Below are positions 5,291 to 6,761 of a stretch of 64,000 nt of DNA, piece after piece. Made by a program: the position numbers and the translations under genes. This stretch comes from Gelidibacter gilvus. GTDB taxonomy: Bacteria > Bacteroidota > Bacteroidia > Flavobacteriales > Flavobacteriaceae. The stretch is taken from NCBI RefSeq assembly GCF_004115975.1, contig NZ_SDDZ01000001.1:124001-188000 (forward strand), in the 5' to 3' direction. How positions within the stretch are numbered: position 1 is the first letter of the stretch; each line of letters begins with the position of its first letter. A model generated the notes under the pieces. It saw nothing but the letters and a program-made list of their open reading frames with translations, had not been told where the DNA came from and did not search any database.

Positions 5291-5350
5291 TGATATTCCC
5301 GCTTTTTAATAAAAAATAGCTACCTTTAAATCCCTAATTAATTATCATTA

Positions 5351-5986
5351 ATGGCAGCGTCTATCATTATAGCAGATGATCATCCTCTTATCCTTAAAGG
5401 TCTCACCGATTTTTTAAAGGAAAAAGATTACAACCTCATTGGAAGTGCCGTTAATGGCAAGGAAGCTTTAGATATGGTTATATCCAAGAAGCCAGAAATT
5501 GCCATCTTAGATATACAAATGCCATTTTTAAGTGGTCTGGAAATCGCAGAAAAGTGTAAGGATTTAAATCTTTCTACAAAAATCATCCTTATTACTTTTG
5601 AAAAGGACGAAGCCATTTATAAGCAAGCAAAAGCTCTCGAAATCTACGGCTATGTACTTAAAGAATTCGCACTTGTTGAGATTGAAAATTGTATAGCAGC
5701 TGTATTGGACGGAAAATCCTATTTTAGTCCGGAACTGATTGAGTATTTAGAAATTCCTGAACCGCCAAAAGAATTACAGCTACTAACTCCAACTGAAATT
5801 GAAGTATTAAAACATATTGCCTTAAATAAAACAGCCAAAGAAATCGGTAGCATTCTTTTCATTTCTAGTAGAACGGTCGAAAAACACAAAAGCCATATCA
5901 TTAGAAAATTGGAGTTAGAGTCCAAAGGAGGGAGTTTAGCACTCTTTGCCAAAGAAAACGAGGAATTTCTTGATTTAAATACGTAG
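5351..5986 (+). CDS. Orphan NarL/LuxR-type response regulator
   Basis: A 211-residue two-component response regulator. The receiver domain (residues 1-120) has the acidic pair Asp9-Asp10, phospho-acceptor Asp54 in AILDIQMP, Thr82 and Lys104. A LuxR/GerE-type helix-turn-helix spans about residues 144-190 (LTPTEIEVLKHIA through ISSRTVEKHKSHI). No histidine kinase gene adjoins it, so it is an orphan locally. Its last codons and stop (5981-5986) lie inside a 16-bp palindrome (5980-5995) that recurs twice more downstream in front of short transcription units. It is therefore the obvious candidate to bind those sites; that is inference from position and from the palindromic targets of LuxR-type domains. 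Confidence 0.93.
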   Translation: MAASIIIADDHPLILKGLTDFLKEKDYNLIGSAVNGKEALDMVISKKPEIAILDIQMPFLSGLEIAEKCKDLNLSTKIILITFEKDEAIYKQAKALEIYGYVLKEFALVEIENCIAAVLDGKSYFSPELIEYLEIPEPPKELQLLTPTEIEVLKHIALNKTAKEIGSILFISSRTVEKHKSHIIRKLELESKGGSLALFAKENEEFLDLNT

Positions 5987-6028
5987 TTCTACGTATTGTT
6001 TGGTATTAAGATTATAGCCATCTTTACA
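5980..6028 (+). promoter_or_regulatory. TACGTAG box module 1 (palindrome plus promoter)
   Basis: TACGTAGTTCTACGTA (5980-5995) is a palindrome of two 7-bp arms around TT. It is followed by TTGTTTGG, 20 variable bases, and TTTACA at 6023-6028. The spacing from the TTG to TTTACA is 27 nt, identical in all three modules. The palindrome overlaps the end of the response regulator gene, and a short hairpin-terminated unit follows. Confidence 0.65.
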
Positions 6029-6097
6029 ATGCTATTAATCAATTCTCTTTAGGAGAATGAAAAAACTCTAGATTGTCAATAATCCAGAGCTTTTTCA
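6020..6097 (+). ncRNA. Candidate small RNA 1 downstream of TACGTAG box 1
   Basis: A probable short transcript of about 75 nt. It runs from the end of promoter module 1 through a 5' hairpin (ATTCTC 6042-6047 with GAGAAT 6053-6058, loop TTTAG) to an intrinsic terminator (CTCTAGATT 6066-6074 with AATCCAGAG 6081-6089, one mismatch, then CTTTTT). There is no meaningful reading frame, only Met-Lys-Lys-Leu-stop. Candidate 2 has the same order of parts with different hairpin bases. The exact 5' end is inferred. Confidence 0.4.
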
Positions 6098-6302
6098 AAA
6101 GGGAAATAGTATGAAGAATATTTTCAATCTTTCATTTCTTTTTTTGCTCCCATTTTAATTTCTTCTTTCATTACAGCCATTCCTACGAGTAGCATCGTGG
6201 GATGTTTTATTTCAAAAGTTCATTAAAGAAGTCTCAAATCCGCAGTCATTTTATTGGATTATGCCTTTATTTTAAGAAAAAAGTACATAATCACTCAAAA
6301 TA

Positions 6303-6351
6303 TACGTAGAACTACGTATTGTTTGGCATTACATAATTGTCGAAATTTACA
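6303..6351 (+). promoter_or_regulatory. TACGTAG box module 2 (palindrome plus promoter)
   Basis: TACGTAGAACTACGTA (6303-6318) repeats box 1 with the centre AA instead of TT. TTGTTTGGCA follows, and TTTACA lies at 6346-6351 with the same 27-nt spacing as in the other two copies. Confidence 0.65.
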
Positions 6352-6416
6352 GTGCTATTAATTCTTAGGGGAATTATTCATAAGGCTCTGGATCTTTATT
6401 GGTTCAGGGCTTTATT
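6343..6416 (+). ncRNA. Candidate small RNA 2 downstream of TACGTAG box 2
   Basis: A probable transcript of about 70 nt with the same layout as candidate 1. The shared start is TTTACAGTGCTATT. A 5' hairpin follows (AATTC 6360-6364 with GAATT 6371-6375 around TTAGGG), then a 10-bp terminator stem (GCTCTGGATC 6385-6394 with GGTTCAGGGC 6401-6410, including three G-U pairs) and TTTATT. Stem sequences differ from unit 1 but pairing is kept, which suggests selection on RNA structure. Confidence 0.4.
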
Positions 6417-6443
6417 GCTTCATAACCAAATCTCATTAAAAAA

Positions 6444-6492
6444 TACGTAGAACTACGTATTGTTTGACATCATATTATTAGTGAAATTTACA
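6444..6492 (+). promoter_or_regulatory. TACGTAG box module 3 (palindrome plus promoter)
   Basis: TACGTAGAACTACGTA (6444-6459) is identical to box 2. TTGTTTGACA follows, with TTTACA at 6487-6492 and the same 27-nt spacing. The leader then carries CCCTA-TT-TAGGG (6510-6521), a hairpin in the same place as those of units 1 and 2. The module leads to the 36-codon gene at 6576. Confidence 0.65.
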
Positions 6493-6575
6493 GTACTATT
6501 TGATTGATCCCCTATTTAGGGCAAGACACATACTCAAGTAAGCTAATAGAAACAACCTAAATCTCTAAAAAACTT

Positions 6576-6686
6576 ATGAAAATCATGAAAGATAATTTCA
6601 AAAGTGGCAATCGTTTACTAATCATAGGATTGATATCGAGCGCAATATTGATTATAACTGCAAATATTCTTGTTAATTTCTTTTAA
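6576..6686 (+). CDS. 36-residue single-span membrane peptide
   Basis: A short frame of 36 codons from the ATG at 6576. An internal ATG at 6585 would give 33. It has a basic N-terminus (KIMKDNFKSGNR) and then one hydrophobic segment of about 20 residues (LLIIGLISSAILIITANILV), so it should be a small inner-membrane protein with N-in topology. It is the only coding unit among the three TACGTAG-box modules, about 115 bp downstream of box 3, and is followed directly by a strong terminator. No known family is recognised. The clean Met, a composition typical of small membrane proteins and the framing signals support it as a real gene. Confidence 0.6.
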   Translation: MKIMKDNFKSGNRLLIIGLISSAILIITANILVNFF

Positions 6687-6700
6687 TTGTTAGTTGGTCA

Positions 6701-6740
6701 AAAAAAGGGCAACTTAATTAAATAAGTTGCCCTTTTTTAT
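6701..6740. terminator. Bidirectional intrinsic terminator
   Basis: The stem AAAAAAGGGCAACTTA (6701-6716) pairs with TAAGTTGCCCTTTTTT (6723-6738), with A- and T-runs on both sides. It can end both the small membrane peptide unit (plus) and the sucB-sucA operon, if the E1 and E2 genes are co-transcribed (minus). Confidence 0.9.
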
Positions 6741-6761
6741 TTTATAAATTCTTGTTTTTAC

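Follow-up and report, generated by a model that had tools for sequence, protein, structure and literature searches.

The window (i.e., the whole stretch of 64,000 nucleotides that was analysed) derives from a 4.6-Mb Gelidibacter genome, whose response regulator (RR) shares 90, 87, and 88% identity with those of its nearest named relatives G. pelagius, G. japonicus, and G. maritimus, respectively. Three palindromes lie 3′ of the gene for this LuxR/NarL-type RR; palindromes 1 and 2 precede predicted RNAs of 66 and 63 nt, respectively, and palindrome 3 precedes an ORF for a 36-aa membrane peptide. The features of the array are as follows (R1 being the covariance model described below):

5321..5328 (+): predicted –7 box of the RR gene, TACCTTTA, resembling the TAnnTTTG motif given in section 15 of PMC9723704
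5331..5337 (+): TCCCTAA in the RR leader, its CCCUAA complementary to UUAGGG of RNA 2
5347..5355 (+): ATTAATGGC across the RR start codon (5351–5353), nine pairs (one G·U) with GCUAUUAAU of both RNAs
5351..5986 (+): LuxR/NarL-type response regulator, 211 aa (Pfam: Response_reg 5–114, GerE 144–192)
5980..5995 (no strand): palindrome 1, TACGTAGTTCTACGTA; overlaps the stop codon of the RR, which presumably binds there
6019..6026 (+): predicted –7 box of unit 1, CATCTTTA, with TTT[AG] at offset 43 from the start of the palindrome box
6031..6096 (+): predicted small RNA 1 (class B), with 5′ tail GCUAUUAAU, hairpin ATTCTC/GAGAAT, and terminator (R1 34.1 bits, E 0.002)
6111..6158 (+): remnant of a small membrane ORF 3′ of unit 1, 15 codons left
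6303..6318 (no strand): palindrome 2, TACGTAGAACTACGTA, by pattern match
6342..6349 (+): predicted –7 box of unit 2, GAAATTTA, from sequence and fixed offset
6354..6416 (+): predicted small RNA 2 (class A), with 5′ tail GCUAUUAAU, hairpin with UUAGGG, and terminator (R1 40.1 bits, E 1.2e-4)
6444..6459 (no strand): palindrome 3, TACGTAGAACTACGTA, by pattern match
6495..6575 (+): unit-3 leader (predicted); promoter as in units 1 and 2, no hairpin-terminator unit, runs into the small ORF
6576..6686 (+): small membrane ORF MKIMKDNFKSGNRLLIIGLISSAILIITANILVNFF, 36 aa; a pattern ORF in 78/80 related loci
6701..6738 (+): inverted repeat (I4) and T run closing the array, terminator-like

The original prediction had described two hairpin units 3′ of TACGTAG boxes 1 and 2, and both were present as described, behind exact boxes; it left out the third box, behind which lies the 36-aa ORF and no hairpin unit. 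That the units are paralogous RNAs behind boxes going with the adjacent RR was supported as well. The 5′ stems differ and yet pair (ATTCTC/GAGAAT in unit 1 vs. AATTC/GAATT in unit 2), and so do the terminator stems, i.e., CTCTAGATT/AATCCAGAG with one A·C mismatch and GCTCTGGATC/GGTTCAGGGC with G·U pairs. The transcripts, put at 70–75 nt, came out shorter, namely 66 nt (6031–6096) and 63 nt (6354–6416), with both ends being predictions. Section 15 of PMC9723704 gives the –7 box as TAnnTTTG at positions –12 to –5, and with the –7 box placed accordingly, both RNAs are predicted to start at the G of GCTATTAAT. The 36-aa membrane ORF (6576–6686) yielded no Pfam match, and the count of such ORFs in 78 of the 80 related loci is based on a text pattern. 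Longer small membrane ORFs were seen 3′ of unit 1 in seven loci (L038, L039, L042, L044, L045, L046, and L062); in L038, L039, L042, L045, and L062 this second small ORF is intact. On the other side of the RR gene, ~2.8 kb 5′ of it, a tRNA gene (RF00005) is located at 2497–2584 (–) of the window, and a same-strand tRNA also stands ~2.4–2.5 kb 5′ of the RR gene in L050, L056, L077, L094, and L113.

All three palindromes match TACGTANNNNTACGTA (i.e., TACGTAG(NN)CTACGTA) exactly, and TACGTAGNNCTACGTA has these three matches only in the 4.6-Mb genome. TACGTAG itself was found six times in the window vs. 1.81 expected, a number reached in 2 of 100 shuffles. As relatives, we took the best 80 of 487 loci by RR similarity alone, MAGs included; related species among them do not amount to independent counts, and L005–L014, which are the same assemblies as ten of L034–L062, were counted once. 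At least one palindrome was located within 1100 nt 3′ of the RR gene in 79 of the 80 loci, the sole exception (L063) carrying near-palindromes, and the first palindrome began –7 to +25 nt from the RR stop codon in 74 of these 79. TTT[AG] was positioned exactly 43 nt after the palindrome start in 170 of the 173 exact palindromes in the window and the 80 loci, and no other offset from 30 to 59 exceeded 38 of 173. This geometry places the palindrome centre ~43 nt 5′ of the predicted transcription start, and LuxR-type activators often bind about that far upstream. Moreover, the 4-nt spacer was identical across all boxes in 58 of the 72 genomes with several exact boxes (2000 shuffles yielded a mean of 21.6 and a maximum of 33), indicating that the palindromes of one genome evolve together. 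This uniformity may reflect either concerted evolution or matched specificity.

The units are no chance likeness, given that orthologous units were seen in other genera. Text patterns on the RNA 5′ end served to sort them into classes A, B, and C, so that the invariance of the 5′ end within a class arises partly by construction. The best-kept sequence consists of this 5′ end, GCUAUUAAU, together with the UUAGGG loop. The paired changes between the two units had been read as selection for RNA structure. This reading held for the terminator; the hairpin of unit 2 gave it moderate support and that of unit 1 weak support. With RNAalifold, alignments of unit 1 (13 sequences, with L040 and L045 excluded as divergent) and of unit 2 (23 of the 26 class-A units) recovered the terminator stem only, with two-sided changes in 7 of 14 pairs in each. 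When compensatory changes were looked for in class C (29 of 35 units), all nine pairs of the terminator core showed two-sided changes at 100% pairing, followed by T-rich sequence as in an intrinsic terminator, and the outer three terminator pairs were paired in 74.7%. The 5′ hairpin of these 29 units was 98.9% paired with two-sided changes in none of its seven pairs, and 13 units had gaps in two pairs. Compared with dinucleotide shuffles, the 5′ hairpin region reached a mean z of –2.03 in class A (unit 2; 21 distinct sequences), –1.44 in class C (23 distinct), and –0.64 in class B (unit 1; 90 distinct). The 5′ hairpin of unit 1 is, as such, weakly supported. Since every intrinsic terminator keeps its stem, covariation of the terminator does not prove an sRNA, and the stronger evidence is the conserved 5′ sequence that is complementary to the RR's own translation start. 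As a separate observation by eye, UUUUAGG(GA) 5′ of the terminator is complementary to a CCUAAAA-like sequence just 3′ of it in class-B units of L041, L043, L046, L047, L052, L055, L056, and L065, so that a longer stem may wrap the terminator in this class.

The complement of the RNA 5′ end, TTAATAGC, was encountered in 44 of 81 RR leaders (i.e., the window and 80 relatives, the window not being among the 44), covering 17 of 29 genera or lineages, and in 1 of 486 other ORFs of the same loci (mechanically called, ≥80 aa). It ended 2–6 nt before the ATG in all 44 leaders, 42 of which had the full 9-mer. The 8-mer was missing from the other 37 leaders; it was present, for example, in 0/3 leaders of Xanthomarina and 1/4 of Mangrovimonas. 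CCCT occurred in 48 of the 81 leaders and stood 0–22 nt 5′ of TTAATAGC in 25 of them. The two leader elements stand in pairing order: ATTAATAGC, located at the start codon, is the reverse complement of the RNA 5′ end, and the CCCT further upstream is that of the loop.

The window's own leader is without TTAATAGC and carries the variant ATTAATGGC over the start codon with TCCCTAA upstream, to which either RNA can pair. For either RNA, the RR start ranked first, by a narrow margin, among 121 starts in the window (–14.8 kcal/mol, with the next at –14.3 and –14.2), and the duplex did not stand out when the leader was dinucleotide-shuffled (p-value of 0.085). With one unit taken per locus, leader shuffling gave p < 0.05 in 35 of 81 leaders, at a median p of 0.075. 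In G. mesophilus, the duplex on the RR leader had two blocks of nine pairs each, separated by a bulge of 6 nt (–23.6). In an independent set of loci chosen by the RNA model, from which an RR leader was obtained in 28 of 30, at least 7 nt were complementary to the core in 20, p < 0.05 against mononucleotide shuffles was reached in only 11, and several leaders held the two elements in reverse order. By eye, the anti-Shine-Dalgarno end of the 16S rRNA can form 5–6 pairs with the RNA, including G·U.

Single-block targets of the unit-2 loop were also considered. The long form TCCCCTAAGAA gave 16 hits in nine Gelidibacter genomes, nine of which were the sRNA gene itself, and the pattern CCCCTAAGA gave 64 hits (nine of them self) vs. 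92 for its reversed pattern. Only four orthologous pairs were found by blastn among the 55 non-self CCCCTAAGA hits, arguing against a conserved single-block target, and one of the 55, located 5′ of the RR gene in G. mesophilus (G003), led to the bipartite target. The corresponding pattern, TCCCT-N2-18-ATTAATAGC-N2-4-ATG, had 23 matches in 21 of the 349 genomes of the family, six of which were this RR, and its reversed pattern had six matches in all. Three matches (L278, L279, and L280, with TCCCTAA as the upstream element) preceded one and the same protein of 141–145 aa, the N-terminus of which looks secreted and for which neither of the two copies tested gave a Pfam match, making it a candidate second target. 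The other matches included one DUF7793-like protein (below cut-off) and ORFs of 170 and 57 codons, and 11 of the 23 stood before ORFs of 18 codons or fewer. The sole match in the window's genome is not the RR gene and precedes a 16-codon ORF.

A covariance model, R1, was built on the class-C units; its E-values are rough, and its weakest matches may be due to chance. In the window's own genome, the two units were the top two hits. Five further hits (E 0.012 to 0.79, four of the loci inspected) appeared to be ordinary terminators or chance. The model search across Flavobacteriaceae that had been put forward as a check returned matches at E ≤ 0.01 in 148 of 349 genomes and 109 of 237 genera. In the class, 1 of 295 genomes matched at E ≤ 1e-4, as did none of the nine family members shown there. 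Even the units of the window (E 1.2e-4) fall short of this threshold, so that only for strong matches is a restriction to the family established.

Many genomes carried extra copies of the core elsewhere. We inspected 20 hand-picked stretches: L170, which spans a multi-copy array of the first kind, and 19 surrounding extra copies. Among these 19, the core stood behind a second palindrome, TACTCAAWTTGAGTATTG, in 16, and in two (L160 and L172) no palindrome was recognised. This second kind of locus (seen in L153–L157, L159, L161–L169, L171, and most of those inspected among L189–L207) is composed of a PAS-LuxR gene, palindrome TACTCAAWTTGAGTA, and the sRNA core, often followed by a convergent gene; the neighbours are ones that we take to be murF-like (in this convergent position) and sucB-like. 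The second palindrome was detected in 61 of 349 genomes of the family (reversed control, 0) and is absent from that of the window. Eleven of these genomes were viewed; an ORF of 256–260 aa lay just upstream in ten of them, and a strict pattern located the core at +50 in eight. PAS_3 and GerE domains were identified in the single upstream protein that was tested. The ten PAS-LuxR leaders examined were without TTAATAGC, which argues that PAS-LuxR regulators are not autoregulated in this way. Both kinds of locus were found together in at least nine genomes (G024, G064, G079, G154, G199, G239, G289, G294, and G364).

The remaining extra-copy stretch (L158, genome G013) holds two minus-strand copies of the core, at 1562 and 8520, behind a third kind of palindrome with CCGTAA. 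Two HK-RR pairs, each an HK with a divergent RR (below the Pfam cut-off), lie ~7 kb apart there, and each precedes a core, so that this single genome may present a third kind of regulator for the same RNA core. In Winogradskyella (e.g., L077, L083, and L085), an additional hairpin, GTTATTAATTAAGGGTTAATAAC, which carries an AGGG of its own, forms the 5′ end of the first RNA and sits between promoter and core, displacing the core ~25 nt further from the predicted start. That the core stays while promoter, regulator, and terminator change indicates that it is selected as an RNA.

The units, the palindromes, the fixed promoter geometry, the conserved core, and the complementary sites at the RR gene in about half of the relatives are established at the level of sequence. 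They suggest that RR-activated twin sRNAs probably repress translation of the RR itself, in an autoregulatory negative feedback. The RR would bind the palindromes, the series of which starts at the stop codon of its own gene, and would thereby activate the promoters with a –7 box at fixed distance, an activation for which palindromes and spacing argue. Two of the three transcripts would be short terminated RNAs, presumably made and stable, and the third would encode the 36-aa membrane peptide. GCUAUUAAU and UUAGG(G) could then pair antiparallel with AUUAAUAGC, for which the window has AUUAAUGGC, at the RR start and with CCCU(AA) upstream of it, so that the RNAs would block translation and lower RR synthesis. 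The redundant twin sRNAs would thereby provide negative feedback on the RR, and the membrane peptide may act in the same circuit.

Alternatively, the units could belong to the 5′ leader of the small membrane ORF and act there as attenuators, the terminator stopping most transcripts and read-through making the peptide. In many relatives a unit indeed lies directly 5′ of such an ORF, and in L017 and L019 a palindrome-like site and promoter stand directly before the ORF without an RNA unit. We nevertheless consider attenuation unlikely, because some units have no ORF before the next palindrome (unit 2 of the window and the first units of Winogradskyella), unit 3 of the window has the ORF but no terminator, and the core recurs at other loci behind another palindrome, several of which have a convergent next gene when larger ORFs are considered. 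Attenuation also leaves the complementarity to the RR start unexplained. That the hairpins are mere terminators without RNA function, and that only the repeated RR-driven promoters matter, is very improbable in our view. Any terminator would be expected to covary in this way, support for the class-B hairpins is weak, and unit 3 of the window, L017, and L019 consist of promoter and ORF only, all of which would fit such promoters; the core, however, has been retained where both the palindrome and the neighbouring regulator are different ones, and its position ~25 nt further 3′ behind the inserted hairpin in Winogradskyella is not explained by selection on the promoter.

GacA is a NarL/LuxR-type RR that acts from an upstream palindrome on titrating RNAs, and the driver proposed here is likewise a NarL/LuxR-type RR with an upstream palindrome. 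The RNAs might accordingly titrate an RNA-binding protein through an exposed AGGG, as CsrB/RsmY do CsrA; AGGG is kept in most class-A and class-C units while its flanks vary, and occurs twice in some Winogradskyella and Psychroserpens units. Searches of 25 genomes make this quite improbable. CsrA (PF02599), the partner of CsrB/RsmY-type RNAs, was found in none of them, the window's included, and RRM (PF00076) in two, both from other families of the order, and in none of the 15 from the window's own family and none of nine Gelidibacter genomes. Hfq scored above the cut-off in none of the 25, one match below the cut-off, in a Gelidibacter genome, being broken by stops. No CsrA, RRM, or intact Hfq was found in the genus, which argues against titration of a protein; moreover, conservation is not confined to AGGG but extends to the 5′ end GCUAUUAAU.

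Beyond translational feedback on the RR, it is conceivable, although we hold this tentatively, that one RNA core is common to several signalling systems and that the RNA of one circuit represses the regulator of another. At least three kinds of regulator in Flavobacteriaceae (the RR, PAS-LuxR, and, in one genome, HK-RR) have a private palindrome and a core sRNA immediately 3′ of their own gene, and the core would serve as a currency for ranking or balancing signalling systems without a known RNA chaperone. The small membrane peptide could then provide a second arm of feedback by acting on the sensor, in the way that the small membrane peptide MgrB feeds back on PhoQ.

Redundant sRNAs under an RR, with feedback on that RR, are known from Qrr1–5 and LuxO in Vibrio, which are sigma-54 driven and Hfq-dependent; the Gelidibacter units would resemble them as redundant sRNAs under an RR with the feedback proposed here. 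The OmrA and OmrB genes are, like the units, a pair of neighbours, standing adjacent to each other. Under EnvZ/OmpR in Enterobacterales, these twin RR-activated sRNAs pair through conserved terminal regions and repress the mRNA of their own activator, with Hfq cooperating (excerpts of PMC12692685). The Gelidibacter RNAs share with OmrA/OmrB an RNA end that is complementary to the start region of the regulator's mRNA (44/81 leaders, the window site being a variant). They differ from them in belonging to another phylum, with no intact Hfq in the genomes tested, in standing directly behind the regulator gene and palindromes, and in having a LuxR/NarL-type RR. At gathering score, Rfam recognised only tRNA, and hence no OmrA/OmrB homologue, in the window and 12 related loci. 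None of the 25 Rfam matches at E ≤ 10 in 5900–6760 was named Omr, and they look like chance. The best reading is that the Gelidibacter RNAs may work like OmrA/OmrB without being members of that family.

The csRNAs of CiaRH in streptococci comprise several short RNAs of one RR regulon in bacteria apparently without hfq; each has a promoter with a site for the RR and ends in a terminator, 32 of 61 form two stem-loops, and they are predicted to cover translation starts by a stretch between the stem-loops that is complementary to Shine-Dalgarno and AUG (parts of PMC3091779). Layout and apparent lack of Hfq are shared with the Gelidibacter units, whereas the pairing parts here are the RNA 5′ end and loop, and instead of NTTAAG-N5-WTTAAG with an OmpR-type regulator we found TACGTANNNNTACGTA with a LuxR/NarL-type RR. 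Within Bacteroidota, the FopS/GibS family of Bacteroides thetaiotaomicron also consists of paralogous sRNAs that pair near start codons, as is predicted here; according to the consulted sections of PMC11697453, FopS has 14 copies at several loci, represses susC-like mRNAs, and associates with the RRM protein RbpB. RRM proteins, the group to which RbpB belongs, were found in 0/9 Gelidibacter genomes. Rfp18 of Flavobacterium psychrophilum is described, in the portion of PMC9723704 used, as a conserved flavobacterial sRNA thought to act by pairing and predicted to do so via its third stem-loop with metalloprotease mRNAs; judging by this description, both pairing parts and targets differ from those of the present RNAs.

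Little seems to be known about trans-acting sRNAs and their targets in Flavobacteriaceae, the open papers searched offering one study, on Flavobacterium, and the 15 genomes of the family tested here yielded no CsrA, RRM, or intact Hfq. Against this background, an RNA family of marine flavobacteria, without an Rfam match in the window and 12 related loci and with R1 matches in 148 of 349 genomes, now has a predicted promoter, start, seed, and target. The regulator gene, its presumed site, and the putative feedback RNA stand together as one cassette. Should different regulators indeed draw on a single RNA core, this would amount to a concrete case of RNA cross-talk.
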